From assembly GCF_016093545.1 (NCBI RefSeq), contig NZ_JADKYX010000014.1:62001-126000 (forward strand): a DNA stretch of 64,000 nt, read 5' to 3'. How positions within the stretch are numbered: position 1 is the first letter of the stretch; each line of letters begins with the position of its first letter. Of this stretch, positions 5,558 to 46,120 are shown in pieces. The position numbers and the translations under genes were made by a program. Origin of the DNA: Massilia rhizosphaerae. Its GTDB lineage: Bacteria; Pseudomonadota; Gammaproteobacteria; Burkholderiales; Burkholderiaceae_D. The notes under the pieces were generated by a model that was not told where the DNA came from, ran no database searches, and saw only the letters and a list, made by a program, of their open reading frames with translations.

Positions 5558-5559
5558 GT

Positions 5560-5964
5560 TCAGGAATCTCCCAGCTTGAGCAGCGACTGCTGCATGGATT
5601 TGATGCGTCCGAGGACTTCGACGTTGGTTTCGAAGGCGCGGCTGGCGGACATCATGTCGGCCATCTCCGAGACTTCGTTGACGTTGGTGTAATAGACCAT
5701 GCCGTCGGCGTCGGCCTTGGGGTTGTCCGGCTCGTGCACGCGGCGCAACGGCTCGGCGCTCTCGACCACGTCGAGCACCCGCACGCCCGCGCTGGCGTCG
5801 TTGCCCATGACGGACGCGAAGACCGGCTTGCGGGCGCGGTACGCTTCCGCCTCGGAGCCGGCCGCGACGTCGGCGTTGGCCAGGTTGCTGGCAATCGTGT
5901 TCAGGCGCACCGACTGCGCCGCCATCGCCGAACCGGCGATCTGGGAAATGTCCTTGAAGCCCAT
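5560..5964 (-). CDS. flgC: Flagellar proximal rod protein FlgC
   Basis: The frame is open further upstream, but the ATG at 5964 gives MGFKDISQIAGSAMAAQSVR and a 134-residue product of normal FlgC length. The rod motif LNTIASNLANADVAAGS and the C-terminal EMADMMSASRAFETNVEVL are present. The longer frame upstream overlaps flgB out of frame and is not coding. Confidence 0.94.
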   Translation of the reverse strand: MGFKDISQIAGSAMAAQSVRLNTIASNLANADVAAGSEAEAYRARKPVFASVMGNDASAGVRVLDVVESAEPLRRVHEPDNPKADADGMVYYTNVNEVSEMADMMSASRAFETNVEVLGRIKSMQQSLLKLGDS

Positions 5965-5974
5965 TGTTGACCTG

Positions 5975-6334
5975 TTATTGACCGTTGATGGCTTTTGCCA
6001 GCCCACGCAACTGCATGTTGATGAAAGTGAGGCTGGTATTGAAATCGGACGAGTTCTGTCCGAATGCCGCTTGCTCGACGCCGATCTCGACGGTGTTGCC
6101 GTCGGCGCTCGGGTGGTAGGGCACGCGGTACAGCGGCTTGTCGTCGGAGAGGGTGAGCTCGCCGTTCTCCGTGTCGATGCGATCCTGCAGCATGGCGCCA
6201 AAGTCGATGTCGCGTGCGGTGTAGCCGGGCGTGCTTTCGTTCGCAATGTTCGCCGCCAACACCTTGGTGCGCTCGGCGCGCAGTTCCAGCGCGTCGGCGT
6301 GCACACCCAGTGCGTCTTTGAAATTAATCGTCAT
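5975..6334 (-). CDS. flgB: Flagellar proximal rod protein FlgB
   Basis: The ATG at 6334 gives MTINFKDALGVHADALELRA and a 119-residue protein, the usual FlgB size; in-frame starts further upstream add a tail unlike FlgB. The motif VLAANIANESTPGYTARDID identifies the rod family. An AGGAG ribosome site sits just upstream. This is the first gene of the leftward flgB-flgJ operon and is divergent from flgA, with 72 bases between the start codons. Confidence 0.94.
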   Translation of the reverse strand: MTINFKDALGVHADALELRAERTKVLAANIANESTPGYTARDIDFGAMLQDRIDTENGELTLSDDKPLYRVPYHPSADGNTVEIGVEQAAFGQNSSDFNTSLTFINMQLRGLAKAINGQ

Positions 6335-6406
6335 GTCAGGAACTCCTGTCGGTTGAACGTCAAATGATTGGTTAGAATCAGATTTTTCCGCAGCCACTAT
6401 TCTCTA

Positions 6407-7120
6407 ATGAATGCTTTCTGTAAGGCAACCCTTGCCGCTTCATCACTTATGCTGTTTTCTGCGTTCGCGCAAGCGGCAACGTCGTCGATTCCGGTGCAAA
6501 TTGAACAAGCCGCCCGTGCCGAACTGGAAAAACAAATGGAGGCGTCCGGCTTGACCGAACCGCAATTCGACATCGCCGTCGTGGCGCCGCGTCCGGCGCC
6601 GCCATGCAGCCAGCAAGTGGCCATCGAACCGCTCGATACCCGTTCTCCCCAGAGGATGCGCTTCGTGGCGCGCTGTCCGGACACGCCCGGATGGCGGTAC
6701 GAGTACGTCGTCCGGGCGCGCGTGAGTGCCATGGTGGCAATCGCGGCGGCACCCGTCGCGCCGAACGAAGCGTTGACGGATGAACAAGTCACGATCGAGC
6801 GTCGTGATATTTCGAACATTGCCGATCCGATCAGTAATCCGGCCGATGCGGTCGGACAAATGTCTCGTCGCATGTTGCGTCCGGGAGACATTTTGCGCAG
6901 CGGACAGCTCCGCGCCCCGATTCTGGTGAAACGCGGCGATGCCGTCACGATGGTCGCGCGGCGCGAAGGCATCGAAGTCAGCATGGCCGGAGAAGCCTTG
7001 GACGAGGGCGGGAAAGGCGCCGTCGTGCGCGTGCGCAACGTCGGCAGCGGGCAGGTCGTGCGCATGCGCGTCGTCGCGCCGGGCACGGTTGAGCCGATCG
7101 ACATACAAATCAGCCGCTGA
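6407..7120 (+). CDS. flgA: Flagellar P-ring assembly chaperone FlgA
   Basis: The ATG at 6407 gives MNAFCKATLAASSLMLFSAF with a good signal peptide ending at AQA. The TTG at 6368 would only add a polar extension. The 237-residue product has the SAF/FlgA C-terminal domain: RRMLRPGDILRSGQL, PILVKRGDAVTMVARREGI and a closing VEPIDIQISR. FlgA is the periplasmic chaperone for FlgI. It faces away from flgB, and its 3' end overlaps the convergent hydrolase gene by 11 bases. Confidence 0.94.
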   Translation: MNAFCKATLAASSLMLFSAFAQAATSSIPVQIEQAARAELEKQMEASGLTEPQFDIAVVAPRPAPPCSQQVAIEPLDTRSPQRMRFVARCPDTPGWRYEYVVRARVSAMVAIAAAPVAPNEALTDEQVTIERRDISNIADPISNPADAVGQMSRRMLRPGDILRSGQLRAPILVKRGDAVTMVARREGIEVSMAGEALDEGGKGAVVRVRNVGSGQVVRMRVVAPGTVEPIDIQISR

Positions 7121-31982: not shown

Positions 31983-34268
31983 TCAGTTGGTCGACTTGCC
32001 GACGATGAGGCCGCGGCCGCCCAGGTAGAGGGTGCCGAATTCCTTCGGATCGCCGGTGATCACCGTGGCGGCGCCATACTGGTGCTGGGCGTCGTCGACC
32101 CGGACCCAGTTCTGGCCCGTGTCGGTGGAGCGGAAGATGCCCTGCACGCCGCCCACGGTCCCCGACAGATACATGGCCGGATAGCTCGCCCCGGTCGCCG
32201 CCTTGCCGAAGCCCAGCGCCTTGGCGGCGGTCACGTTCGCCAGCTTGGTCCACGCGCCCTGTCCCCAGTTGTTGTTGTGGTACAGGCCTTGCCAGTTGAC
32301 CAGCCAGACGTCGCCGCGCACGCCGGCCGGCGTGACCAGGTTGTCGGACCATGCCGGGATGCCGTTCGTGTTGCTGCTCGAATTGGCCGCCCACCAGCTG
32401 GCGCCCCTGCTGTTGCTGAGGTAGAGGATGCCCGTGGGGCGGTCGTAGGCGTAGAACACGGTGGGATCGGCACCGTCCGATGCGATCAGCGCCGACTTCG
32501 GTACCCCGATGGTCTGCCACGAATTGCCCATGTCGGTCGAGCGCACCGTCGGCGCGGTCCACGTCGACCAGATGATCGACGTGGTGGCGGGGTTGGTACT
32601 GGTGTCGGTGGACATCGCCACGTGGCCGCCGCCCGCCGTCGACGGGCCGTTGCTGCCGAATGCCTGCCAGCTGTAGCCGCCGTTGGTCGACACGGCGCCG
32701 AAATGCTTGTTGGCCGCCGGCTGCCAGTCGTCGGTGCCGACGCGCACCACCAGCCTGGAGTCGGTCTTGGCGTAATCGAGCGACCAGGTGTCCTTGCAGC
32801 TCGGTCCCGTGAACGGGGACTGCGGGTAGACGTTCACGTCCGTGTGGGTGAAGCCGCACACGTCGCCGGCGCCGGTCAGGACGGGGTAGGCGTTCCACAC
32901 ATTGGGAAGCGGCGATTTCAGGTCCAGGATGGCCGTTTCCGCGACACCGTTTTCGCCGTAGGCCCAGGTGGTCCCGGCCGCGGTGAGGTTCTTCGTTTCC
33001 CAGATGCCGCCGCCGAACGAGACGAATGCGTGATTGACGTCGTACGGGTCGAGGATGGAGCCGCCCCAGTTGCCGAAGTCGTTCACCGGGCCGTTCGCGG
33101 TGCGCCACGGTTCCGCGCTGGTGTCGAAGTGGGCGTTCGGCAGGATGTCGGTCCAGTGCGCGCCGCCGTCGGTGGAGCGGTACATGGTCTCGACCTGCGC
33201 GCCCGTGCCGGCGTACCAGTCGATGGTGTTCACCGTCAGCCAACCCGGCCGCCACGGATCGACCGACAGGCCCGCGAAGCCGTACGACTTGGGCGAGACC
33301 GGGCCGTTCGGCGTGACGTCGGCCCACTGGTCCTGGCTCGCGACGTTGATTTTCCAGACTTCGCCGCCGATCAGGCCGCCGGGGCCGTAGTTGTTGCCCT
33401 GGCCGTAGTTGGCGGCGCGCGCGAACGTGACGTAGAGGTAGCCGTCGGGACCGATCTGGCCACGCTGCGGGAAGGCGCCGGCGGCCGGTCCGCCCCACAG
33501 CCGCGACCACGAGTTGCCGCCGTCGGTGCTCTTGTAGACCGGGATGCCGTTGTCGGCGGCCGACTGGGTGTTCACGCCCACATAGATGGTCGGTGTCGCG
33601 TTGCCGGACGTGCCGGATTCCTTGCGGAAGGCGATGAAGGCGATGCCGGCGCCCGTGCCGTCGCTCGTCAGCACGTTGAAGTTCGGCAGGCGGTTCCAGT
33701 GCTGGCCGCCGTCGACGCTCTTCCAGATGCCGTTGGTGGCGGCGTTGGCGCTCGCATTGCCGGTGCCGTAGAACAGGATGTTGCCGTTGTTCGGATCGAC
33801 CTGCAGTTTCTCGCCGGCCTGGCGGCCGCTCTCGTTGCCGCCCGCCGAGAACTGCAACGTCGAGGTGGTGAAGCTGCGGCCCTGGTCGTTCGAGGCCATG
33901 AAGATGGCCTTGTCGGTGCCGTTGCCGTAGCCGCCGCCGCCCACCATGTAGAACTTGCGCGCATCGCTGGGATCGACGGCGATCGAGTCGACCCCCATCG
34001 CATAGCCGAGGCTGGGCGGCAGCCAGTCGTTCAGCGGAATCCAGGTGCTGGTCGACGCATCGTAGCGGTAGGCGCCGCCCACGTCCGTCTTCGCATAGAA
34101 CAGGCCTTGCTGGCCCGGATGGGCGAGGAAGCCGTCGACATAGCCCGTGCCGCCGATTTTCGCGTTACTCCAGGTGTAGGTGGGCGCGGCCGAGGCGGCG
34201 GGCACGCAGGCCATGCCGAACGCCGCCAGCAGCGCCGCGGTCACGCCCGTGGAAGCAAGCAGTTTCAT
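31983..34268 (-). CDS. Secreted GH74 xyloglucanase-type glycoside hydrolase
   Basis: The 761-residue protein has a signal peptide ending near ASAAPT. It is built from tandem BNR/sialidase-like beta-propeller repeats (for example STDGGNSWSRLW, SVDGGQHWNRL). The N-terminal YTWSNAKIGGTGYVDGFLAH and FYAKTDVGGAYRYD motifs are those of GH74, with D62 as the likely catalytic acid in the TDVGGAYR stretch. GH74 enzymes cut the beta-1,4-glucan backbone of xyloglucan. No carbohydrate-binding module is visible. A GH31 glycosidase at 48669 might act on released oligosaccharides. Confidence 0.88.
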   Translation of the reverse strand: MKLLASTGVTAALLAAFGMACVPAASAAPTYTWSNAKIGGTGYVDGFLAHPGQQGLFYAKTDVGGAYRYDASTSTWIPLNDWLPPSLGYAMGVDSIAVDPSDARKFYMVGGGGYGNGTDKAIFMASNDQGRSFTTSTLQFSAGGNESGRQAGEKLQVDPNNGNILFYGTGNASANAATNGIWKSVDGGQHWNRLPNFNVLTSDGTGAGIAFIAFRKESGTSGNATPTIYVGVNTQSAADNGIPVYKSTDGGNSWSRLWGGPAAGAFPQRGQIGPDGYLYVTFARAANYGQGNNYGPGGLIGGEVWKINVASQDQWADVTPNGPVSPKSYGFAGLSVDPWRPGWLTVNTIDWYAGTGAQVETMYRSTDGGAHWTDILPNAHFDTSAEPWRTANGPVNDFGNWGGSILDPYDVNHAFVSFGGGIWETKNLTAAGTTWAYGENGVAETAILDLKSPLPNVWNAYPVLTGAGDVCGFTHTDVNVYPQSPFTGPSCKDTWSLDYAKTDSRLVVRVGTDDWQPAANKHFGAVSTNGGYSWQAFGSNGPSTAGGGHVAMSTDTSTNPATTSIIWSTWTAPTVRSTDMGNSWQTIGVPKSALIASDGADPTVFYAYDRPTGILYLSNSRGASWWAANSSSNTNGIPAWSDNLVTPAGVRGDVWLVNWQGLYHNNNWGQGAWTKLANVTAAKALGFGKAATGASYPAMYLSGTVGGVQGIFRSTDTGQNWVRVDDAQHQYGAATVITGDPKEFGTLYLGGRGLIVGKSTN

Positions 34269-34436
34269 AGGTATCTCGCTTTCGTCAAGTGAAGGAGTGT
34301 CCCGGCGTCTCCTCGCCGGGGGGATTTCTGTCGAGAATCTCTCGAAAAATCACCACGAAGGATTGTGCTCGCCCTTCGATAGCCCTTCCATAACGAAATC
34401 CATCAGCGCCCGCGCGAAATCCCGTGGCCCGCCGCG

Positions 34437-35744
34437 TCAATCCAGGGCGGCCGCCTTCAGCCGCCGGTACAGGCTGCGCTCGCTCATGCCGAGCGCCGTG
34501 GCGAGTTCCTTGCGCGATCCCTTGAAACGCCTGACATAGTCCCGGAAACCCGCATCGTCGCCCGGTTCGGCGGGCGGCGGAGGGGGCGCCGCCACGTCGA
34601 GATGCAGATGGTCGGGACGGATTTCGCCGTCGTCGGCAAACAGGCGGGCCCGTTCGAGAACGTTGCGCAGTTCGCGAATATTGCCCGGCCAATCGTGCGC
34701 CATCAGCGTGGCCAGCGCGGCGCTCGACAGGTGCATGCGCTTGCCGGTGACGCTGGCGCTGCGTGCGAGCAGCGACTCCACCAGCATCGGTATGTCCTCG
34801 CGCCGTTCGCGCAGCGGCGGCAGGCGGATCGGGAAGGCGCTGATCCGGTAGTACAGATCCTCGCGAAATGCCTTGTTCTCGACCATCTCGCGCAGCGGCT
34901 TGTGGGTGGCCGCGACCAGCCGGAAGTCCGCCTGCAGCGTCTCGACGCCGCCGACGCGCCGGTACGTGCCCGATTCGATCAGGCGCAGCAGCTTGACCTG
35001 CATCGACAGCGGCACGTCGCCGATCTCGTCCAGGAACAGGGTGCCGCCCTGCGCCGTCTCCACCAATCCGGGCTTGCGATGGCTGGCGCCGGTAAACGCG
35101 CCGCGCTCGTAGCCGAACAGTTCGCTTTCGAACAGCGTTTCCGTGAGGCCGGAACAGTCGACGACGACGAACGGGCCGCGCGCCCGCGCGCTCTCCTCGT
35201 GCACGGCGCGCGCGAACAACTCCTTGCCGGTGCCGGATTCGCCCAGCAACAGCACGGGCAGGTCCGAGGGCGCCACCCGCCGCAACTCGCCGAGCACGCG
35301 GTTGAAGGCGGGCGAACTTCCCACCAGTCCCTTGCCGCTCGGCTGGGCGGAGGCGTGGCGCACCGTCTGCAGGCGCTCGACGAAGCCTACCACACGGTGG
35401 CCCGCATCGACGATGGGCCGCAATTCCACGTCGACGTGCTCCGGGCCGCGCGGCGTGTGATGGATGTGCAGCACGCGGTCGGGCGCGTGGGTGGCGAGCG
35501 CGTTGCGCATCGGGCAGTGTTCGCCGGCCTGGTCGCACGGGCGGTCGTAGTGGTGCGACATGGCGTAGCACTTGGTCCCGACATACGGCTTGTCGGCCGC
35601 CCCGAACTGGCGCTGGTAGGCCGTGTTGGCCGCCAGTATTTCGTAGTCCGTGTTCATGACGATCGTGGGGGCCGCCTCGTGGTCGAGATAGGAAATCAGG
35701 GCTTGCACTTCCGAAGCCTGGAGGACGTCGTGCGGGGTGTTCAT
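34437..35744 (-). CDS. fisR: FisR-type sigma-54 activator sensing sulfane sulfur
   Basis: The ATG at 35744 ([10 protein letters not shown]) gives 435 residues; a longer frame upstream runs into the control region. The N-terminal domain contains C59, C70 and C77 ([20 protein letters not shown]), the same C-x10-C-x6-C spacing known for the persulfide-sensing cysteines of Cupriavidus FisR. The AAA+ domain has Walker A GESGTGKE and the sigma-54 contact loop GAFTGA. A Fis-type helix-turn-helix ends the protein. It is divergent from the PDO-SQR operon and should activate it when sulfide or polysulfide builds up. Confidence 0.9.
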
Positions 35745-35779
35745 GGGGAACCTGTCGGGGGAGGGCATCGCGCCCATTC

Positions 35780-35832
35780 TGCCTCGTTCTGCCACGACTG
35801 CCAAGTGGCAGTCGGAAACTGCCAATTCTGCC
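35780..35832. promoter_or_regulatory. Candidate FisR enhancer: array of TGCC half-sites
   Basis: Five forward TGCC motifs (35780, 35790, 35799, 35820, 35829) and one reverse copy occur in 53 bases, mostly 9-10 bases apart. The core is a perfect inverted repeat GACTGCC-AAGT-GGCAGTC at 35796-35813. The array lies 86-138 bases upstream of the sigma-54 promoter, the usual distance for a sigma-54 enhancer. Confidence 0.7.
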
Positions 35833-35888
35833 AACAGAGGCGGCCGCTTCCTTCACTGAGCCGCGATGTCATCGAAATTTTCCTGAAA

Positions 35889-35901
35889 ATTCAACGGCTT
35901 G
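35889..35901 (+). promoter_or_regulatory. Candidate IHF site
   Basis: ATTCAACGGCTTG fits the IHF consensus WATCAANNNNTTR at all but one fixed position. It lies between the enhancer array and the sigma-54 promoter, where IHF bending would bring FisR to the polymerase. Confidence 0.5.
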
Positions 35902-35917
35902 GCGGCGGATGATGGCA

Positions 35918-35933
35918 TGGCACGGAATTTGTA
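35918..35933 (+). promoter_or_regulatory. Sigma-54 promoter of the PDO-SQR-cyd operon
   Basis: TGGCACG-GAAT-TTGTA matches the sigma-54 consensus TGGCACG-N4-TTGCW with one change (GC to GT at the -12 element). Transcription should begin near 35944, about 25 bases before the persulfide dioxygenase start. Its presence next to a sigma-54 activator gene supports the assignment. Confidence 0.85.
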
Positions 35934-35967
35934 TAGAAGGGAGTGACTAACCCTGAAGGAGACTGTC

Positions 35968-36843
35968 ATGAGCAAGATACATGTCGAAGGCATGTTCGAC
36001 CCCGCCACCAGCACGATCAGCTACATCGTCATGGACGAGGCGAGCCGCCACTGCGCGCTCGTCGACAGCGTGCTCGACTACGACCCCAAGTCCGGCCGCA
36101 CGTCGACCGCCAGCGCCGACCGCCTGATCGAACGGGTCCACGCGCTCGACGCCAAGGTCGACTGGATCCTCGAGACGCACGCGCACGCCGACCACTTGTC
36201 GGCGGCGCCTTACCTGAAGGAGCGGCTGGGCGGGCGCATCGCGATCGGCGAACACATCCGCAAGGTGCAGGACGTGTTCGGCAAGCTGTTCAATGCGGGG
36301 CCGGGTTTCGCCCACGACGGCAGCCAGTTCGACCATCTGTTTCGCAACGGCGAGGAATTCATGATCGGCACCCTGGAAGCGGTGGCGATGCACACCCCCG
36401 GCCATACGCCAGCCTGCCTGACCTATGTCGTGCGCGACGGCGACGACCTGGCCGCCTTCGTCGGCGACACCCTGTTCATGCCCGACTACGGGACGGCGCG
36501 CTGCGATTTCCCCGGCGGCGACGCGCGCACGCTGTTCGCCTCGATCAACAAGGTGCTCAGCCTGCCGGGCCGCACGCGCCTGTACATGTGCCACGACTAC
36601 CAGCCGGGCGCGCGCGAGGTCCGCTACGAGACGACCGTCGAGGAAGAGCGCACGCACAACATCCACGTACGCGACGGCATCAGCGCGGAGGAATTCGTCG
36701 CCATGCGCAACGCGCGCGACGCCACGCTGCCGATGCCGGTCCTGATCCTGCCCGCCGTGCAGGTCAATATGCGGGCCGGCGGCCTGCCGGAGCCGGAGGA
36801 CAACGGCGTGCGCTACCTGAAGATTCCCCTCAACGCCATCTGA
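35968..36843 (+). CDS. pdo: Persulfide dioxygenase (ETHE1-like metallo-beta-lactamase fold)
   Basis: The 291-residue protein has the metallo-beta-lactamase motif THAHADH at residues 70-76 (H71, H73, D75, H76). Further metal-ligand regions are MHTPGHTPACL and FVGDTLFMPDYGTARCDFPG, the latter typical of ETHE1/PDO. It oxidises glutathione persulfide to sulfite. An AAGGAG ribosome site precedes it. It is the first gene of a sigma-54-driven operon with SQR. Confidence 0.93.
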   Translation: MSKIHVEGMFDPATSTISYIVMDEASRHCALVDSVLDYDPKSGRTSTASADRLIERVHALDAKVDWILETHAHADHLSAAPYLKERLGGRIAIGEHIRKVQDVFGKLFNAGPGFAHDGSQFDHLFRNGEEFMIGTLEAVAMHTPGHTPACLTYVVRDGDDLAAFVGDTLFMPDYGTARCDFPGGDARTLFASINKVLSLPGRTRLYMCHDYQPGAREVRYETTVEEERTHNIHVRDGISAEEFVAMRNARDATLPMPVLILPAVQVNMRAGGLPEPEDNGVRYLKIPLNAI

Positions 36844-36872
36844 CCCATCTGACCACGTACAAGGAGAGCATC

Positions 36873-37064
36873 ATGAAACGCAATGAAGGTACGCTCGACC
36901 GCGCCGCCCGCATCGGTGCCGGCGCCGGATTGATCGGTCTGCACCTGGCCGGCGTGCTGGGCCCCTGGGGCTGGATCGGCATCGTGCCGCTGCTCACCGG
37001 ATTGGTGGGGAGGTGCCCGTTGTACCGCCTGCTCGGCATCGACACTTGCAGGCTCGGGTCATGA
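36873..37064 (+). CDS. Small DUF2892 (YgaP-type) membrane protein
   Basis: The 63-residue protein starts at an ATG with AAGGAGA upstream. It reads NEGTLDRAARIGAGAGLIGL, then LGPWGWIGIVPLLTGLVGRC and PLYRLLGIDTC. These are the two-helix DUF2892 pattern often fused to or next to rhodaneses and sulfur oxidation enzymes. It probably helps sulfur transfer at the membrane, but its exact function is not established. Its stop overlaps the SQR start by 4 bases. Confidence 0.88.
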   Translation: MKRNEGTLDRAARIGAGAGLIGLHLAGVLGPWGWIGIVPLLTGLVGRCPLYRLLGIDTCRLGS

Positions 37065-38722
37065 ACATCAAGCACTTGAGCGCGGCGCTGTCCGTCGCGC
37101 CGCAGATCGCGCCGGCCGACGTGCCGGAGATCGCCGCGGCCGGTTACAAGGCGATCATCTGCAACCGCCCGGACGGGGAGGGGGCCGACCAGCCCAGCTT
37201 CCGCGAAGTCGAGCTGGCGGCGCAGGCCGAAGGGATCCCGGTGCGCTACCTGCCCGTGATCCCGGGGCAATTGAGCGATGCGCAGGCCGGCGAGTTCGGC
37301 CGCCTGCTGGACGAGTTGCCGAAGCCGGTGCTGGCCTACTGCCGCACCGGCATGCGCAGCGCCAGCCTGTGGGGCCTGTCGCGCGGCGGCAGCATGCCGC
37401 CGGCCGAGATCCTGGCCCGCGCCGGCGAATGCGGCTATGACCTGAGCGCGCTGGTGCGCCGCATGGTGGCGCCGGACAGCCGGGTCGATTTCGTCGATGC
37501 CGTGCACCAGGTCGTGATCGTCGGCGCGGGCGCGGCGGGGATCGCGGTGGCCGCGAGCCTGCGCGCGCGCGACCCGGACCTCGACGTCGCGATCATCGAT
37601 CCGGCCGACGTCCATTACTACCAGCCGGGCTGGACCCTGGTCGGCGCCGGCGTGTTCGACGCCGGCGAGACCGTCCGCGCAGTCGGGGCGCTGGTGCCCC
37701 GCGGCGTACGCTGGATCAAGTCGGCCGTGTCGCATTTCGACCCGGAGCGCGACACCGTGGTGCTGGAAGGATGCCGCCGCGTGCGCTACAAGCAACTGGT
37801 GGTATGCCCGGGCCTCAAGCTGGACTGGGGCGCCATCGCCGGACTCGAGGACACCCTGGGCGCCAACGGCGTGACGTCGAACTACCGCTTCGATCTCGCG
37901 CCCTACACCTGGGAGCTGGTGCAAAGCTTCCGGGGCGGCACCGCGCTGTTCACCCAACCGCCGATGCCGATCAAATGCGCGGGTGCGCCGCAGAAGGCCA
38001 TGTACCTGTCGTGCGACGCCTGGCGCCGGCGCGGCGTGCTCGACCAGGCGGACGTCCGCTTCGAGACCGCCGGCACCGCGCTGTTCGGCGTCGCCGACTA
38101 CGTGCCTGCGCTGATGGACTATGTGCGCGCCTACGGGATCAGCCTCGATTTCGGCCGCCGCCTGACGGCGGTGGACGGCGCGTGCCGCGTCGCCACGTTC
38201 GCCGTCGCGGCCCCGGACGGCGAGCGCGTCGAGCAGGTGCCGTTCGACTTCCTGCACGTGGTGCCGCCGCAGGTCGCCCCGGACTTCATCCGCGCCAGCC
38301 CGCTGGCCGACGCGGCGGGCTGGGTCGACGTCGACCAGTCCACCTTGCGCAGCAAACGCTATCCCAACGTGTTCGCGCTGGGCGACGCCGCCAACACGCC
38401 CAACGCGAAGACCGCGGCCGCCGCGCGCAAGCAGGCGCCGGTCGTCGCCCACAACGTGCTGTTCGCGCGCGGCCGGGGCGCGCGCGAGGCCCGCTACGAC
38501 GGCTACGGCTCCTGTCCGTTGACCGTCGAGCGCGGCAAGATCGTGCTGGCCGAGTTCACGTACGGCGGCAAGCTGGCGCCCAGCTTCCCGTCATGGCTGC
38601 TGGACGGCCGCAAGCCGTCGCGCCTGGCCTGGCTGCTGAAGGAACGCATCCTGCCGCCGCTGTACTGGCAGGGCATGCTGCGGGGCCGCGAATGGCTGGC
38701 GAAGCCGGAGATGGTGGGATGA
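37061..38722 (+). CDS. sqr: DUF442-sulfide:quinone oxidoreductase fusion
   Basis: The 553-residue protein has an N-terminal DUF442 domain (about residues 1-135) with a phosphatase/rhodanese-like loop CRTGMRS at 94-100. The SQR flavoprotein domain follows, with the FAD motif VVIVGAGAAGIAVA at 151-164. The two redox cysteines expected for human-type SQR are present at C306 (IKCAGAPQK) and C485 (YDGYGSCPL). It oxidises sulfide to persulfide and reduces quinone. The start overlaps the DUF2892 stop, and the stop overlaps the cydP start. Confidence 0.93.
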   Translation: MNIKHLSAALSVAPQIAPADVPEIAAAGYKAIICNRPDGEGADQPSFREVELAAQAEGIPVRYLPVIPGQLSDAQAGEFGRLLDELPKPVLAYCRTGMRSASLWGLSRGGSMPPAEILARAGECGYDLSALVRRMVAPDSRVDFVDAVHQVVIVGAGAAGIAVAASLRARDPDLDVAIIDPADVHYYQPGWTLVGAGVFDAGETVRAVGALVPRGVRWIKSAVSHFDPERDTVVLEGCRRVRYKQLVVCPGLKLDWGAIAGLEDTLGANGVTSNYRFDLAPYTWELVQSFRGGTALFTQPPMPIKCAGAPQKAMYLSCDAWRRRGVLDQADVRFETAGTALFGVADYVPALMDYVRAYGISLDFGRRLTAVDGACRVATFAVAAPDGERVEQVPFDFLHVVPPQVAPDFIRASPLADAAGWVDVDQSTLRSKRYPNVFALGDAANTPNAKTAAAARKQAPVVAHNVLFARGRGAREARYDGYGSCPLTVERGKIVLAEFTYGGKLAPSFPSWLLDGRKPSRLAWLLKERILPPLYWQGMLRGREWLAKPEMVG

Positions 38723-38919
38723 CCACGCTGTTCCGCAGCCGCAGCCGCGGCCTGCACCGCGCGACCGGTCTGCCGCTGGCGGCGGAAATCGCCATCGTGC
38801 TGGCGGTCAAGGTGACGCTGCTGTTCGCGCTGGCGCACCTGTTCTTCGCCGAACCGGAGGCGAAACACATGCGGATGGATCCCGCGCGGGTGACGCGGCA
38901 CCTGCTCACAACACGATAA
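38719..38919 (+). CDS. cydP: CydP-like small subunit of cytochrome bd oxidase
   Basis: The 66-residue protein has one membrane helix (AAEIAIVLAVKVTLLFALAH). The C-terminal FFAEPEAKHMRMDP resembles the small CydP proteins found before cydA. Its ATG overlaps the SQR stop (ATGA), directly coupling bd-oxidase translation to SQR. It precedes cydA by 25 bases. Confidence 0.75.
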   Translation: MTTLFRSRSRGLHRATGLPLAAEIAIVLAVKVTLLFALAHLFFAEPEAKHMRMDPARVTRHLLTTR

Positions 38920-38944
38920 ACGCAAGCAATCGGAGGTATGCGCA

Positions 38945-40513
38945 ATGTCTGTCATCGATGAAGTGGTCGCGCTGTCGCGGCTGCAGTTCGCCGTCACGGC
39001 GCTGTACCACTTCCTGTTCGTCCCGCTCACGCTGGGCCTGTCCTGGATCCTGGTGATCATGGAATCCGTCTACGTCATGACGGGCAGCGCGGTCTACAAG
39101 GACATGACGCGGTTCTGGGGCAAGCTGTTCGGCATCAACTTCGCCATGGGCGTCGCGACCGGCATCACGCTCGAATTCCAGTTCGGGACCAACTGGTCGT
39201 ACTACTCGCACTACGTCGGCGACATCTTCGGCACGCCGCTGGCGATCGAGGGCCTGGCCGCGTTCTTCCTGGAGTCGACCTTCGTCGGCCTGTTCTTCTT
39301 CGGCTGGGATCGCCTCAGCCGGCGCCAGCACCTGCTGGTGACCTTCCTGGTCGCGCTCGGCTCCAACATGTCGGCGCTGTGGATCCTGATCGCCAACGGC
39401 TGGATGAACAACCCGGTGGGCGCCGCGTTCAACATCGACACCATGCGCATGGAACTGGTCAGCATGACCGACGTGATCTTCAATCCGGTGGCCCAGGTCA
39501 AGTTCGTGCACACGGTCGCCGCCGGCTACGTCACGGCCTCGATGTTCGTGCTGGGAATCTCGGCCTGGTATCTGCTGCGGGCCCGCGATACCGCGTTCGC
39601 CCTGCGCTCGTTCGCCGTGGCGGCCGGGTTCGGCCTCGCGTCCGTGCTGTCGGTGATCGTGCTGGGCGACGAGTCGGGCTATACGGCCGGCGAGGTCAAC
39701 AAGGTCAAGCTGGCGACCATCGAAGCGGAGTGGGAAACCCAGCCGGCGCCGGCCAGCCTGACCCTGTTCGGCATCCCGAACGAGCAGGCCCGGCGCACCG
39801 ACTACGCGATCAAGCTGCCTTGGGTGCTGGGCTTGATCGGCACCCGCTCGACGGACGGCAAGGTCGTCGGCATCGCCGATCTCAAGCGCGAGCACGAAGT
39901 CCGCATCCGGCGCGGCATGCAGGCCTACGCGGACCTGGCGCGGCTGAAGTCGGGCGACCGCTCGCCCGCGGCGGTGGCGGCGTTCGAAGCGACCAAGGCC
40001 GATCTCGGCTACGGCCTGCTGCTGAAGAAGTACACCGACAAGGTGGTCGACGCGACGCCCGCCCAGATCGCGCGCGCCGTCGACGACACCATTCCGCACG
40101 TGCTGCCGATGTTCTGGGCGTTCCGCCTCATGGTGGGCCTGGGCTTCCTGTTCCTGTTCATCTTCGGCGCGTCGTTCTACTTCCTGGTGCGGCGCCGGCT
40201 GGCGCCCCAGCGCTGGCTGCTGCGGCTGGCCGCGCTCGCGATCCCGCTGCCGTGGATCGCGGCCGAACTCGGCTGGGTGGTGGCGGAGTACGGCCGCCAG
40301 CCCTGGACCATTGCCGGCGTGCTGCCGACCCACCTGTCCGCCTCCACGCTGACGCCCGGCAACCTGTATTTCAGCCTGGCCGGCTTCGTCGGCTTCTACA
40401 CGTTCCTGCTGGTGGTCGAGATGACGTTGATGGTCAAGTACGCGCGCCTGGGCCCGAGCAGCCTGCACACGGGCCGCTACCACCGCGAGCAGGGCGCCGG
40501 CCAGCCCACTTGA
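38945..40513 (+). CDS. cydA: Cytochrome bd ubiquinol oxidase subunit I
   Basis: The 522-residue protein is the length of E. coli CydA and has the long Q-loop (about residues 250-370). H22 in [12 protein letters not shown] is the likely haem b595 ligand. The diagnostic GRQPW motif appears in [17 protein letters not shown]. Subunit I binds the haems and oxidises quinol. A GGAGG ribosome site precedes it. Confidence 0.96.
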
Positions 40514-40523
40514 GGAGAACGAC

Positions 40524-41663
40524 ATGATCTTCGATTACGAAACCTACAAGCTCATCTGGTGGGCGTTCGTCGGCGTGCTGCTGGTCGGCTTCGCGCTCAC
40601 CGACGGCTTCGACTTCGGTGTCGGCATGCTGCTGCCCTTCGCCGGGCGCAACGACGGCGAGCGGCGCGTGCTGATCAACGCCATCGGCCCCACCTGGGAA
40701 GGCAACCAGACCTGGTTCATCACCGCCGGTGGCGCCACGTTCGCGGCCTGGCCGCTGGTCTACGCGACCGCGTTCTCCGGCTTCTACGTGGCGCTGATGG
40801 TGCTGCTGTTCTCCCTGTTCCTGCGCCCGGTGGGGTTCGACTACCGGGGCAAGGTGGCCGATCCGCGCTGGCGCTCGGCGTGGGACTGGGGCCTGTTCGC
40901 GGGCGGGCTCGTGCCGCCGCTGATCTTCGGGGTCGCGTTCGGCAACCTGCTGCTGGGCGTGCCGTTCCGCTACGACGAATCGATGCGGGTCGCGTACTAC
41001 GGCAGCTTCTTCGGGTTGCTGAATCCGTTCGGCCTCGTGGCCGGCCTGGTGTCGGTGCTGATGCTGCTGATGCATGGCGCGGCCTTTGCGCTGGTCAAGA
41101 CGGAAGGCGAGGTCGCCGCGCGGTCACGCCGCATCGGCATCGGCGCCGCGCTCGGCACCGCGCTGCTGTTCGCCGCCGCCGGCTTCTGGGTCGCGCACCT
41201 GCCGGGCATGCGCATCGACGCGATGCCGGACCCGAACGGCGCCTTCACGCCACTGGCCAAGACCGTGACGGTGGCGGACGGCGCGTGGATGGACAACTAT
41301 GGCCGGTGGCCGGCCATGATGGCGTTTCCCGCGGCCGGCGTCGGCGGCGCCCTGCTGGCGGCGCTGTGCATGGGGCTGCGCCGGCCGCGCCTGGCCTTCG
41401 GCGCCAGCGCGCTGGCCGTGGCGGCCATCATCGTGACGGCCGGCGCCGCGCTGTTTCCGTTCATCCTGCCGTCGTCGCTGGATCCGCGCAGCAGCCTCAC
41501 CGTCTGGGACGCCGTGTCGAGCAAGCGCACGCTGGGATTGATGTTCTGGATGGTGCTCCTGTTCCTGCCCATCATCGTCGCCTACACCGCCTGGGTCTAC
41601 CGGATCATGCGGGGCAAGGTGACGCTCGACTACATCCGCGAGAACGAACATACGTCGTACTGA
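40524..41663 (+). CDS. cydB: Cytochrome bd ubiquinol oxidase subunit II
   Basis: The 379-residue protein has about nine membrane helices. It begins [20 protein letters not shown] and has the family motifs [15 protein letters not shown] and [19 protein letters not shown]. It pairs with CydA. It starts 10 bases after cydA, with TGAGGAGA as its ribosome site. Confidence 0.96.
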
Positions 41664-41677
41664 GAAAGGAGAGCACC

Positions 41678-41845
41678 ATGTGGTATTTCAGCTGGATCCT
41701 CGGCGTGGGCCTGGCGCTGGCGGCGGGCATCATCAACGTGTTGTGGCTGGAGGCGAACTACGCCTTCGGCCGGCGCGAAGCGAGCGTGACGGAGACGCGC
41801 TTTTCCGAAGCGCGCGAGCAGGAGCGGCGCAAGCGGCGGCGCTGA
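41678..41845 (+). CDS. cydX: CydX small subunit of cytochrome bd oxidase
   Basis: The 55-residue protein begins MWYFSWILGVGLALAAGIIN, the signature of CydX/YbgT with one membrane helix. A charged tail (ARE-QERRKRRR) follows. It stabilises the oxidase. It is the last gene of the operon and ends 6 bases before the convergent P-type ATPase. Confidence 0.92.
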   Translation: MWYFSWILGVGLALAAGIINVLWLEANYAFGRREASVTETRFSEAREQERRKRRR

Positions 41846-41851
41846 AGAGGC

Positions 41852-44380
41852 TCAGCGCGTGCCGGCCCGGCCCGGACGGCGGATCGCGTTCACCCCTTCG
41901 AACCAGGCGACGGCGAGCAGCGACGCGCCGGCGGCGGCGGCCAGCATCCGGACCGGCGGCAATGCGAACGCGAACAGCCGCGCGACCTCCGGGATGGCGA
42001 GCACGACCGCGAGCAGGATCGACGTCGCGATGGCCATCCAGTCGAAGTAGCGATTGGGCGCGCGCTTCATCCGCCACGGCGCCGCGTCCCAGCGGCGGTT
42101 CGCGTAGATGAGCCCGATGTTGGACAGGACCAGCACCGCGAACGTCATGGCGCGCGCGACGTCGGCCGAATGCGCCGCACGGCTGCTCCACACGTAGACG
42201 CCGCACAGCAGGGCCAGCAATCCCGCGCCCTGCGCCAGTCCCCTGGCCAGGACGGCGGTGTCGAACAGGCGGTCGTCGGGGCGGCGCGGCTTGCCGCGCA
42301 TCGTGTCCCGTTCCGGTTCCTCGGCCTCGAACACGAGCGAGCAGCTCGGGTCGATGATCAGCTGCAGGAACAGGATATGCGCCGGCATGAGTATCAGGGG
42401 CCATCCCAGCAGGACCGGGAGAATCGACAGCCCGACGATCGGCACGTGCACCGCGACGACGAACGTGATGGCCTTGCGCAGGTTGGCGAAGATGCGCCGG
42501 CCGTAACGCACCGCCGTGACGAGCGACGTGAAATCGTCCTTGAGCAGCACCAGGCCGGCCGCCTCGCGCGCGACGTCGGTCCCGCGTCCGCCCATCGCCA
42601 CGCCGATGTGGGCGGCCTTCAGCGCCGGCGCGTCGTTGACGCCGTCGCCGGTCATCGCGACGATGTCGCCCTGGCGCCGGAACGCCTGCACCAGCCGCAG
42701 CTTGTGCTCGGGTTGGACGCGGCAGAAGATGTCGGTGGTCGCCAGCCGCGTCGCCAGCGCGTCGTCGTCCAGCGCGGCCAGTTCGGGGCCGGTCATCGGA
42801 TTCCCGTCCGCCGCCAGGCCGGCCTGGCGGGCGATCGACAGGGCGGTACTCGGGTGGTCGCCCGTGATCATCACGACGCGGATGCCCGCCGCGCGGCACT
42901 CGGCGATGGCATGCGGCACGTCGGGCCGCACCGGATCTTCCAGGCCGACGAGGCCGAGGAACCGGAAATCGAAATCGTGCTGGCTCGCCGGCAGATCCCG
43001 CGCCGGGAAGACCGCACGCGCCACCCCGATGACGCGCATGCCGCCGGCGGCCATGCGCGCCACCTGTGCGGCGATCCGCTCGCCCTGCGCGGCGTCCAGG
43101 TGGCACAAGTCGACGATCGCTTCCGGCGCCCCCTTGGCGGCGATCATGCGCGTGGCGGTATCGGGCGATTGCCACACGCGCGACATCGCCAGCATGTCGC
43201 GCGAGAGCGGGTAGTCGTCGACGAGGGCCCAATCCCCGTGCAGGTGTTCGGAATCGGCCAGCAGCCGTTGGCCGGCGTCGACGATGGCCGTCTCCATCGG
43301 ATCGAATGCGCGGCGGTGGCTGGCCAGCACGGCGTATTCAAGCAGGCCGTGAAACGCTTCCGGGAACATGGCGTCCGCCGTTGCCGCGACATCGTATTGC
43401 GCGCCATCGCACCAGAGTTGACGGACGACCATGTGATTGGTCGTCAAGGTGCCGGTCTTGTCGACGCAGAGGACCGTCGTGGCCCCGAGCAGTTCGACGG
43501 CCGGGACGTTTCTCGCCAAGACGTTTTCGCGGGACAGGCGCCAGGCGCCGAGTCCGAGGAACAGCGTCAGGACGACCGGCAATTCCTCGGGGATGATCGC
43601 CATGGCGAGCGTCAGGCCGGCCAGCAGGGCATGCAGCCAGTCGCCGCGCAGCAAGCCGTAGCCGAGCGCCAGCAGCGCCGCCAATGCGAGACCCGCCAGC
43701 GCCACGACTTTCACGATGTGCCGCGTTTCGGTTTGGATGGGCGTGCTTTCTCCACCCAGGTTCGCGAGGGACTTGCCGATCCTGCCCAGGGCGCTGCGTT
43801 CGCCGGTGGCGACGACCTCGCCGCGCGCGGTGCCTTGCGTCACCAGGGTTCCCGAGAAGACGCTGCCGCCGGCATCGTCGCCTGGCGCCGCGTGCTTGGC
43901 GACCGGCGCGGACTCCCCGGTCAGCATCGACTCGTCGACCATCAGGTTCGACGATTCGTGCAACCGGATATCGGCCGGCACGCGGTCGCCTTCGGCCAGG
44001 AGGACCGTGTCGCCGCGCACCAGCTCGCGCCCGGGAATCCTGCGCGGCCGGCCGTTGCGCACGACCAGGGCGCGGGGGCTCGAGAGATCGCGCAATGCGT
44101 CGAGCGACCGCTCGGCGCGGCGCTCCTGGAAGAAGGTGATGCCCATCACGACGAACACGAAGCCCAGCAGCATCAACGCTTCCTGCCGGTCCCCGAGCAG
44201 CATGTAGATGGCGCCGCAGGCCACCAGCAACAGGAACATGGGCTCGAGCACGATATCCCGCAGCAGGCGCAGCATGCTGCGCGGCCGCGATGCCGGCAGT
44301 TCGTTGGGGCCGTCCTGGCGCAGCCGCCGTGCCGCCTCCTCGTCGTCAAGGCCGGGGCGCTGGCCGGGCAATGTGTCCAT
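41852..44380 (-). CDS. P2-type cation-transporting ATPase
   Basis: The 842-residue protein has all P-type ATPase landmarks: an N-terminal cation-ATPase domain, the actuator motif LTGES, the phosphorylation site CVDKTGTLTTNH, the KGAPE nucleotide-binding motif and the hinge MTGDGVNDAPALK. Membrane helix 4 reads AIIPEELPVVLTLFL, close to the PEGLP motif of Ca2+ pumps but with Glu-Leu. It is likely a divalent-cation or proton pump of the P2 group; the ion cannot be set from sequence reading. It is convergent with cydX. Confidence 0.9.
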   Translation of the reverse strand: MDTLPGQRPGLDDEEAARRLRQDGPNELPASRPRSMLRLLRDIVLEPMFLLLVACGAIYMLLGDRQEALMLLGFVFVVMGITFFQERRAERSLDALRDLSSPRALVVRNGRPRRIPGRELVRGDTVLLAEGDRVPADIRLHESSNLMVDESMLTGESAPVAKHAAPGDDAGGSVFSGTLVTQGTARGEVVATGERSALGRIGKSLANLGGESTPIQTETRHIVKVVALAGLALAALLALGYGLLRGDWLHALLAGLTLAMAIIPEELPVVLTLFLGLGAWRLSRENVLARNVPAVELLGATTVLCVDKTGTLTTNHMVVRQLWCDGAQYDVAATADAMFPEAFHGLLEYAVLASHRRAFDPMETAIVDAGQRLLADSEHLHGDWALVDDYPLSRDMLAMSRVWQSPDTATRMIAAKGAPEAIVDLCHLDAAQGERIAAQVARMAAGGMRVIGVARAVFPARDLPASQHDFDFRFLGLVGLEDPVRPDVPHAIAECRAAGIRVVMITGDHPSTALSIARQAGLAADGNPMTGPELAALDDDALATRLATTDIFCRVQPEHKLRLVQAFRRQGDIVAMTGDGVNDAPALKAAHIGVAMGGRGTDVAREAAGLVLLKDDFTSLVTAVRYGRRIFANLRKAITFVVAVHVPIVGLSILPVLLGWPLILMPAHILFLQLIIDPSCSLVFEAEEPERDTMRGKPRRPDDRLFDTAVLARGLAQGAGLLALLCGVYVWSSRAAHSADVARAMTFAVLVLSNIGLIYANRRWDAAPWRMKRAPNRYFDWMAIATSILLAVVLAIPEVARLFAFALPPVRMLAAAAGASLLAVAWFEGVNAIRRPGRAGTR

Positions 44381-44567
44381 CTACTCGCTCCGCATGCATG
44401 TCGGCTCCTTGCGTGGTGCATTCGACGATAGCATCTTCTCCGCACGCACGGTGTCGCATAGAATCTACTCGAATACATTATATCTTTTGACGATATATAA
44501 TTCGATATACAATTGGCGAAAAGCCGAGCCTCGGCTGGACACGCCTTGGGAGAGGGGAGACAACATC
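44381..44567. promoter_or_regulatory. Divergent control region between the ATPase and cytochrome genes
   Basis: Bases 44460-44515 are sharply AT-rich within GC-rich surroundings. They contain TTGACG followed by TATAAT- and TATACAAT-like sequences with irregular spacing, and an imperfect inverted repeat of ATTATATC/GATATAAT type. Promoters for one or both flanking genes probably lie here. Confidence 0.45.
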
Positions 44568-45236
44568 ATGCGACGACGCTTCAGGAAGTTCACACCGGTG
44601 TGGACAGGAATGGCCGTGCTGGCACTGTCGGGGCCCTTGACGCCGGCATTGGCCCAGATGAAGGGCGACGGTGCCGCGATTGCGGCCAAGGGAACGCCTG
44701 CGGGCGCGCTGGCCTGCATGACGTGCCACGGCACCCAGGGCGAAGGCAACGCGGCGGCCGGGTTTCCCCGGCTGGCAGGCTTGCCCGCCCAGTATCTGGC
44801 CGCGCAACTCGACAGCTTTGCGGCGGACAAGCGCCAGAACCCGATCATGGGGCCGATCGCCAAGCAACTCGATGCGGCGCAGCGCCAGGCCGTCGCGGGT
44901 TACTACGGCGCGCTCGCGCCGGTTGCCGCGCCCGCGTCGCCGGAAGGCGGGGCGCTGCGACAGACCGATACCGGCGCGTGGCTGGCGCTGCGCGGGCGCT
45001 GGGACCACGACCTGCCGGCCTGCGTGCAATGTCATGGACCGGGCGGCACCGGCGTCGGGGCGGCCTTTCCCGCGCTCGCCGGACAGTCGAGCGCCTATAT
45101 CGCGGCCCAGCTGCACGCGTTCAAGAACGGCACGCGGCCGGGCGGTCCGCAGGACCTGATGAAGGCCGTCGCCGGCAAGCTGTCGGACGGCGACATCACG
45201 GCGGTATCCAATTACTTCGGCGGGGCCAAACCATGA
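44568..45236 (+). CDS. tsdB: Di-haem cytochrome c, TsdB-like electron acceptor
   Basis: The ATG at 44568 has GAGGGGAGAC upstream and gives 222 residues with a signal peptide (cleavage near ALAQ). There are two haem-binding motifs, C50-MTC-H54 and C152-VQC-H156. The two halves are similar (LAGLPAQYLAAQLDSF and LAGQSSAYIAAQLHAF), as in cytochrome c4. It overlaps the next gene by 4 bases. Pairing with a TsdA-like enzyme suggests the TsdB role; a general c4-type cytochrome is the alternative. Confidence 0.8.
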   Translation: MRRRFRKFTPVWTGMAVLALSGPLTPALAQMKGDGAAIAAKGTPAGALACMTCHGTQGEGNAAAGFPRLAGLPAQYLAAQLDSFAADKRQNPIMGPIAKQLDAAQRQAVAGYYGALAPVAAPASPEGGALRQTDTGAWLALRGRWDHDLPACVQCHGPGGTGVGAAFPALAGQSSAYIAAQLHAFKNGTRPGGPQDLMKAVAGKLSDGDITAVSNYFGGAKP

Positions 45237-46120
45237 AAACGTTCGTACTTTCCCTGATGGCGGCGACCGCGCTGGCCGGCGCCTCGATTGCCGCCGATGC
45301 GGCGGCCCAGGCCAAGGCCGAAGCCAAGCCGGTCCCGTTCACGCCGCCCGCCGCCGACAGCATCCCGGACGACGAGTTCGGCAAAGTGGTCAGGCGAGGG
45401 GAGCAAATCTTCGTCAACACGCAGGAGAATGCCCGCAAGTACGTCGGCAACAGCCTCAATTGCGTCAATTGCCACCTGGACGCCGGACGCAAGGCCAATG
45501 CCAGCCCGTTGTGGGCGGCCTACGTCGCCTATCCGGCCTACCGCAGCAAGAACAAGCACGTGAACACGTTCGCCGAGCGCTTGCAGGGCTGCTTCAAGTT
45601 CAGCATGAACGGCAAGGCGCCGGCGGCCGACGACGAAGTCCTGGTCGCACTCGAGACCTATGCCTACTGGCTTGCCACCGGCGCGCCGGTCCGGCAGGCC
45701 GTGGCGGGACGCGGTTATCCGAGCGTGCCGAAGCCCGCGCAGGCGCCCGACTATGCGCGCGGCCAGAAGCTCTACGCCCAGCACTGCGCGCTGTGCCACG
45801 GCGCGAACGGCGAAGGGCAGGCGAGCGGCGGCAAGACCGCCTTTCCGCCGCTGTGGGGACCGAAGTCGTTCAACTGGGGTGCCGGCATGCATGACGTCAA
45901 GAACGCCGCGGCCTTCATCAAGGCCAATATGCCGCTCGGCCTGGGCGGCACCCTCAGCGACCAGGAAGCCTGGGACGTGGCCATGTTCATGGACAGCCAC
46001 GAGCGGCCCCAGGATCCGCGCTTTGCCGGCTCGGTGGCGGAAACCCGCAAGAAATTCCACGACGAGCCGACCTCGATGTATGGCATGACCGTGAACGGAC
46101 ACGTTCTCGGCAGCAAATAG
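45233..46120 (+). CDS. tsdA: Thiosulfate dehydrogenase-like di-haem cytochrome TsdA
   Basis: The 295-residue periplasmic protein has a signal peptide and haem motifs C77-VNC-H81 and C185-ALC-H189. The segment between them (ASPLWAAYVAYPAYRSKNK, FAERLQGCFKFSMNGKAP) resembles TsdA. C120 is a candidate for the unusual cysteine haem ligand of that family. TsdA joins two thiosulfates to make tetrathionate. Sulfur metabolism genes lie just upstream, which supports the call. Confidence 0.8.
   Translation: MKTFVLSLMAATALAGASIAADAAAQAKAEAKPVPFTPPAADSIPDDEFGKVVRRGEQIFVNTQENARKYVGNSLNCVNCHLDAGRKANASPLWAAYVAYPAYRSKNKHVNTFAERLQGCFKFSMNGKAPAADDEVLVALETYAYWLATGAPVRQAVAGRGYPSVPKPAQAPDYARGQKLYAQHCALCHGANGEGQASGGKTAFPPLWGPKSFNWGAGMHDVKNAAAFIKANMPLGLGGTLSDQEAWDVAMFMDSHERPQDPRFAGSVAETRKKFHDEPTSMYGMTVNGHVLGSK

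Follow-up and report, generated by a model that had tools for sequence, protein, structure and literature searches.

Why does a cytochrome bd oxidase stand at the end of a sulfide-oxidation operon, and is it switched on together with the enzymes before it? The question is raised by a locus of Massilia rhizosphaerae, which we analysed within a stretch of 64,000 nucleotides (the window): genes for a persulfide dioxygenase (PDO), a DUF2892/YgaP-like transmembrane protein, a sulfide:quinone oxidoreductase (SQR) and the oxidase proteins CydP, CydA, CydB and CydX form a single tight string on the + strand at positions 35968–41845. Sulfide blocks haem-copper oxidases, bd oxidases are sulfide-tolerant, and SQR needs its quinol to be re-oxidised. 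A first-pass annotation had proposed that SQR and the bd oxidase are co-expressed under the regulator FisR. Comparative genomics supports this proposal through a FisR-type promoter at pdo with none found at cydA, a recurrent linkage of the two gene sets and separate FisR-type promoters of cyd genes elsewhere, and we consider it quite probable that the window carries a sulfide-responsive respiratory operon switched by FisR from pdo through cydX. Co-transcription, sulfide induction and physiological benefit are what we infer from sequence and comparison.

The packing of the genes agrees with the four-base overlap, the short gaps and the lack of a terminator described in the first-pass annotation. 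The pdo and DUF2892 genes are 29 nt apart, 4-bp ATGA overlaps join the DUF2892 gene to sqr and sqr to cydP (the latter at 38719–38722), and gaps of 25, 10 and 14 nt follow at cydP–cydA, cydA–cydB and cydB–cydX. No terminator-like site was found on the + strand at the sqr–cydP or cydP–cydA junctions, in a scan that was itself near chance level (8 matches in all vs. 5.1, sd 2.3, in shuffled sequences).

The gene products carry the marks of their families (Table 1). PDO is ETHE1-like, with the motifs HAHADH at 71, PGHT at 144 and GDTLF at 166 alignable to 4efz; HxHxDH and the downstream His and Asp are presumably the iron ligands. SQR has the FAD fold of the SQOR-like enzymes, and its C306 (KCAG) and C485 (SCPL) line up with the redox cysteines of human SQOR; the label "type II" and the roles of these cysteines are our assumption. 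Its N-terminus holds a BLH phosphatase/TIGR01244 sulfur-transferase domain, a point that goes beyond the first-pass annotation. CydP exceeds the curated cutoff of its family and is encoded directly 5′ of cydA, and CydA, of the cytochrome bd-I type, keeps the E. coli residues H186, M393, E107, E445, K252 and E257, which we take to be haem-ligand and quinol/proton residues. A whole-genome search gave this one cydA, compared with seven genes that exceed the Pfam cut-off for the COX1 family, which may also take in NO reductases. No CydD was found over the cutoff in the genome (TIGR02857, best 281.5 vs. 435 bits), and the assembly factor CydDC was thus not located.

The putative switch lies just upstream of pdo. 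The fisR gene is transcribed divergently from the operon and encodes the domains of a FisR-type activator, of which the Fis-type helix-turn-helix (PF02954) is barely over its cutoff (22.1 vs. 22 bits). Its sensor domain contains Cys59, Cys70 and Cys77, and this 11/7 spacing is common to all six other FisR genes examined (L195, L154, L194, L196, L092 and L090; L and G numbers denote loci and genomes). An array of CTGCCA/TGGCAG half-sites lies 90–129 bp 5′ of a sigma54-like site, which was scored against what we take to be the sigma54 consensus. The perfect palindrome ACTGCCANNTGGCAGT (ACTGCCA-NN-TGGCAGT) occurs once in the 7.0-Mb genome, at the pdo promoter; if up to two mismatches are allowed, 15 sites are found vs. 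22 in the reversed control, which leaves the perfect form as the only informative one. No FisR-type promoter was found in the 420–450 bp 5′ of the window cydA.

Does this combination of sites follow FisR in other genomes? We defined a FisR-type signature as a sigma54 score of at least 9 of 11 together with at least two half-sites. It was found at 21 of 23 PDO promoters scanned, and both misses (L091 and L093) lack a FisR match; the ArsR gene at L091 is similar to BigR and scores under the BigR cutoff. At L103 the PDO signature is present, yet no fisR match occurs in its 16 kb. Among the named loci, the signature stands at 26/27 FisR-linked loci (the miss, L264, scores 8) and at 0/19 FisR-less loci, these 19 having been hand-picked out of 53; at L210, L213 and L221 the promoter was sought 5′ of the DUF2892 gene, the first gene there. 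As a background, 118 of 20,000 random 450-bp windows from the same loci, true sites included, reach the stricter level of at least three half-sites, to which alone, and not to the two-half-site signature, this figure refers.

A strict pattern applied to 392 family genomes gave one match in each of 19 genomes, with none for the reversed control among the matches listed. Eighteen of the 19 matches adjoin fisR, 15 of these together with pdo (the window included), and the match in G139 lies 5′ of an S-type cydA; the strict pattern overlooks many FisR loci, such as those of G531 and G553. On this comparative evidence we assign the motif to FisR as its predicted binding site. The computed candidate recognition motif is CTGCCA-NN-TGGCAG, some 78–108 bp 5′ of the −24/−12 site, and could be used for prediction of FisR regulons.

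The same signature is found in front of cyd genes. Among 79 cydA records (two genes appear twice), 13 records representing 11 genes carry it, and 10 of these genes adjoin fisR. The loose signature at cydA of L007, with two half-sites only and no fisR match nearby, was treated as chance. In the named set, 8/9 fisR-linked cyd loci have the signature. A cydPABX adjoining fisR as a unit of its own usually has its own FisR-type promoter.

Five arrangements (a–e) of cyd with sulfide genes were seen. In plan a, pdo–sqr and cydPABX form one operon (the window, G531, G553 and G474). Two congeneric genomes, G531 and G553, have the order PDO-SQR-DUF2892-cydP-cydABX, and pdo, but not cydA, is preceded by a FisR-type promoter; in G474, from another family, the order is PDO-SQR-SulP-DUF2892-cydP-cydABX, next to a different sigma54 activator without the three-cysteine spacing. 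In plan b, cydPABX follows fisR, opposite to pdo–sqr, and has its own FisR-type promoter 5′ of cydP (G045, G086, G064, G060, two Cupriavidus, three Pseudomonas and two Oxalobacteraceae metagenome-assembled genomes (MAGs)). In plan c, cydPABX is divergent from a more distant fisR (49–53% identity), again with its own FisR-type promoter (G012, G118, G037, G069 and G042); in those checked, PDO-like proteins of another kind are encoded behind cydPABX, and in G012 a truncated globin and an SQR-like flavoprotein are present as well. In plan d, a FisR-type promoter drives a cydAB of the S-type (G139 and the Burkholderiales MAG L210), and plan e places cyd beside SQR with neither a FisR gene nor the signature (G027, G135 and six named loci). 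A CydP over the cutoff was found in the ORF before cydA at 10/10 plan a–c loci tested, as well as at L094 and in the window.

Two loci of this series deserve a description of their own. At L195 (8002–13647), the genes divergent from fisR comprise cydPABX and, besides a truncated globin, a short PDO-like protein and an SQR-like flavoprotein; in function the set is similar, with a PDO and an SQR that are non-orthologous to those of the window. At L094, a sigma54 activator (5245–6600) adjoining a PDO-SQR-SulP-cydPABX operon is without the FisR cysteine spacing (Cys 68, 74, 77 and 81 in the ORF as read), and is possibly another sensor for the same job.

The survey of relatives proposed in the first-pass annotation found the linkage recurring in part of each sample. 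Among 145 family genomes, cydA is present in 113, an SQR match (1e-40) in 33 and both in 28, one of which (G079) matches SQR by the N-terminal domain only. The cyd genes adjoin the SQR locus in 8 of these 28, five times on one contig (the window genome G000, G139, G027, G045 and G135) and three times, in G086, G064 and G060, as judged past a contig end that falls within pdo or shortly behind it. At the level of the order (399 genomes, 1e-60), 30 genomes have SQR and 218 have cydA, with linkage in at least two (G000 and G474). Within the genus, SQR occurs in 6 of 62 genomes, once as a fragment (G572), and cyd lies at most 3 kb from SQR in 4 of these 6 (G000, G139, G531 and G553). Finally, cyd stands within the flanks of 15 of 80 named SQR loci, including those of Cupriavidus laharis, C. 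basilensis, Pseudomonas pharyngis, P. sputi and P. corrugata, vs. about 0.27 expected from 1.22 Mb of flank and a hand-set density of 1.03 cydA per 4.6 Mb; related genomes are not independent, so this expectation is only a scale.

The linkage thus recurs well above the rough expectation, which speaks for more than chance. That the window itself shows a chance juxtaposition after rearrangement, without function, would fit the rarity of its exact gene order among the loci compared and the fact that no other member of its CydA clade has a FisR-type promoter in the regions scanned. However, the operon plan is nearly matched in G531 and G553, whose CydA is of a different clade, and sqr and cydP overlap by 4 bp; together with the recurrence, on which we rejected chance adjacency, this makes such an origin very improbable.

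From where was the oxidase of the window taken? The long-type CydA proteins with FisR promoters that were included in two trees (14 rows in the first, 13 in the second) form one clade together with G474 in both, with carriers in Cupriavidus, Pseudomonas and Oxalobacteraceae. In the second tree, this clade also takes in G531 and G553 (16 rows, support 100/100), and in the first tree (71 rows) it has an extra member, L182, the second copy of G042, which lacks the signature. The second tree is without L164, L296 and L297, the partial sequences L113 and L216 are in neither, and long branches were flagged in both. The window CydA groups instead with the native CydA of the family (23 rows, 100/99, second tree). 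Its placement in the FisR-associated clade was rejected by the tree position and by the approximately unbiased (AU) test (p = 0.0008), and its grouping with the other operon members gave p = 1.4e-6; both p-values (LG+G4) are indicative only since the groups were defined with the tree already at hand.

The nearest kin of the window CydA, at 84% identity, are found in genomes of the genus g26. Three g26 genomes have a PDO-DUF2892-SQR operon whose SQR is 72–73% identical to that of the window, the highest value in the family search, and in all three this operon lies more than 600 kb from cydA or on another contig. The pattern suggests that the pdo promoter gained control of a native-type cydPABX and that the oxidase of the window was probably recruited separately. 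Most simply, G531 and G553 would have reached nearly the same plan with another oxidase; in a variant of this history, one oxidase may have been replaced by another in an older operon.

Several observations weigh against the FisR-switched operon or limit how general a wiring of cyd to sulfide genes through FisR can be. No cyd genes are nearby in 65/80 named SQR loci (some with short flanks), in 20/28 family genomes with both genes cyd is not beside SQR, and the exact order of the window is, as said, rare. At L243, fisR and cyd are close together and cydA has no signature. The signature is absent from all six named plan e loci, of which L272 has a long-type and the other five an S-type oxidase. 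It is likewise absent (0/16) at cydA genes distant from fisR, in genomes whose fisR adjoins pdo (L135–L145, L148, L152, L019, L020 and L024); we therefore rejected FisR control of distant cyd genes, and many bacteria with FisR evidently do without this wiring. The consensus scans also leave room for a promoter inside sqr, and the separate cydAB locus of Acinetobacter baumannii, considered below, belongs to the same list.

An internal promoter would matter most if it responded to oxygen: cydPABX would then be expressed mainly from there, and the link to FisR would be a minor read-through. In two genomes of the same genus (L296 and L297), a box that perfectly fits what we take to be the FNR/Anr consensus, TTGATNNNNATCAA, stands 5′ of the native cydPABX, which makes ancestral low-oxygen control plausible. 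No such box is present 5′ of the window cydA (best 8/10) or pdo (7/10), and an FNR/Anr promoter in the window was rejected on this ground; the missing box is weak evidence, because boxes of at least 9/10 occur in only 3/33 upstream regions of the native clade. No sigma70-like promoter was found on the + strand in 32000–43000 by a scan that ran near chance level and gave nothing usable, and the start of cydP lies across the stop of sqr. In Burkholderia cenocepacia, cydP, cydA and cydB were identified as fitness genes for anoxic survival (PMC9104464; this and the other papers are cited from excerpts), in keeping with an oxygen-related role. On balance we regard expression mainly from an internal promoter as unlikely.

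With the FisR-switched operon as the preferred reading, the following sequence of events can be proposed. Sulfide would be oxidised to sulfane sulfur by basal SQR; FisR would sense the sulfane sulfur via its three cysteines, bind the CTGCCA/TGGCAG array and activate the sigma54 polymerase at 35918–35932, giving a single mRNA, presumably co-transcribed, through pdo, DUF2892, sqr, cydP, cydA, cydB and cydX. SQR would hand the electrons of sulfide to ubiquinone, PDO and the sulfur-transferase domain would clear persulfide, and CydABX with CydP, being sulfide-tolerant, would oxidise ubiquinol while the haem-copper oxidases are blocked. If this is true, producing SQR together with a sulfide-tolerant oxidase from one switch would solve the problem of quinol re-oxidation under sulfide.

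The genes could also be co-regulated in response to another signal, such as endogenous sulfane sulfur from cysteine breakdown or late growth, or respiratory stress by NO, peroxide or cyanide, with bd serving as a stress-tolerant oxidase and not for outside sulfide. FisR is described as responding to reactive sulfur species via three conserved cysteines (PMC9774590), the bd oxidase of Chromobacterium gives resistance to metals, NO, sulfide and cyanide (PMC11837568), and at L195 a truncated globin follows cydPABX and the PDO-like and SQR-like genes. The recurring partners, however, are pdo and sqr, in loci that were not systematically searched for NO or peroxide genes, and we think such a signal quite unlikely to be the main one.

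More generally, cytochrome bd may be a movable part of the FisR sulfide response. A distinct, sulfide-dedicated bd-I lineage, driven by a FisR/sigma54 promoter of its own, would accompany fisR through Beta- and Gammaproteobacteria. Where this bd-I is absent, other bd oxidases would separately have come under the same switch, the native bd-I in the window and the S-type in G139 and the Burkholderiales MAG, so that these bacteria produce SQR and a sulfide-proof oxidase at once. We hold this broader idea to be an even call. The idea of a single switch for SQR and a tolerant oxidase can be tested directly here, given the defined site on the DNA, the named promoter, the sole bd oxidase of the genome inside the operon, the clade of carriers and the apparently separate recruitments, which allow comparison.

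Table 1. Positions and supporting evidence for the regulatory elements and genes of the locus within the window.
Feature	Position	Strand	Evidence
fisR: PAS + sigma54-activator AAA+ + Fis-type HTH regulator	34437–35744	−	PF08448, PF00158, PF02954
Putative FisR activating sites	35789–35833	+	Five CTGCCA/TGGCAG half-sites incl. perfect palindrome ACTGCCAAGTGGCAGT at 35797–35812
Putative sigma54 −24/−12 promoter TGGCACGGAATTTGT	35918–35932	+	10/11 consensus positions
pdo: persulfide dioxygenase, metallo-beta-lactamase fold	35968–36843	+	PF00753; best PDB 4efz 475 bits; ETHE1 4chl 97.9 bits
DUF2892/YgaP-like transmembrane protein	36873–37064	+	Pfam PF11127 YgaP-like_TM, 81.3 bits
sqr: N-terminal BLH phosphatase/sulfur-transferase domain + human-SQOR-like SQR	37061–38722	+	PF04273, TIGR01244 over cutoff; human SQOR 2.7e-91
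cydP: putative small bd-oxidase subunit	38719–38919	+	NCBIfam NF045611 41.8 bits (cutoff 29.6)
cydA: bd-I type subunit I	38945–40513	+	PF01654; E. coli bd-I 774 bits
cydB: bd oxidase subunit II	40524–41663	+	TIGR00203 466.8 bits, over cutoff
cydX: small bd-oxidase subunit	41678–41845	+	PF08173 YbgT_YccB over cutoff

Beyond the operon, a P-type ATPase gene on the − strand (41852–44380, TIGR01494 over cutoff) converges on cydX with a gap of 6 nt. Two c-type cytochromes are encoded on the + strand at 44208–46120, 2–3 kb past cydX, the second with a SoxA/TsdA domain (PF21342); we take the pair to be a tsdBA-like thiosulfate dehydrogenase (TsdA/TsdB), and homologues of both (56% and 79%) lie near SQR at L309 of the same genus. 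Elsewhere in the data set, SQR adjoins a BigR-like gene in G533 and G572, and the full SQR copy of G533 has an in-frame stop. At L310 and L311 the SQR part is out of frame with the N-terminal domain, as separate genes or through a frameshift. The record of L272, titled Oceanobacillus (Bacillota), contains a PDO, SQR and CydA of proteobacterial type and is probably mislabelled or contaminated.

Compared with known systems, sulfide induction of cydAB and a predicted quinone link between SQR and bd were described before, in Acinetobacter. What appear to be unreported are the CydA clade associated with FisR, the FisR-type promoter in front of cyd and the operon shared by the two gene sets; in a limited, mainly open-access literature we found no report that places cyd genes under FisR or within an sqr operon. 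In A. baumannii, pdo–sqr are induced by sulfide in a FisR-dependent manner, and cydAB is sulfide-induced and refractory to sulfide, with a predicted SQR–CydAB link via ubiquinone (PMC7315123). Its FisR operon (A1S_1708–1711) resembles the window in the divergent sigma54 activator FisR, in PDO and SQR and in a predicted sigma54 promoter, and differs in having no cyd genes as described in the excerpts (PMC7315123). There, cydAB (A1S_1433–1434) is a separate locus for which the excerpts show no FisR dependence, whereas the cydAB of the window lies inside the sqr operon (PMC7315123).

Cupriavidus pinatubonensis JMP134, known here via citing work (PMC9774590), likewise has a FisR-controlled pdo–sqr operon; in contrast to the window, strain HN-2 (L215) has no cyd match within its 9-kb flanks. 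The cydPABX of B. cenocepacia H111 is, as in the window, a four-gene oxidase unit with cydP first, and is tied in the excerpts, which mention no sulfide genes, to anoxic survival (PMC9104464). In cioRAB of Chromobacterium violaceum and the CydE-regulated bd oxidase of Alishewanella, an oxidase for sulfide resistance is placed under a dedicated regulator (PMC11837568, PMC6096048); these regulators are of the MarR and GbsR type, with no SQR/PDO linkage mentioned in the excerpts (PMC11837568, PMC6096048), unlike the window, where the predicted regulator is FisR and the oxidase genes directly follow sqr.

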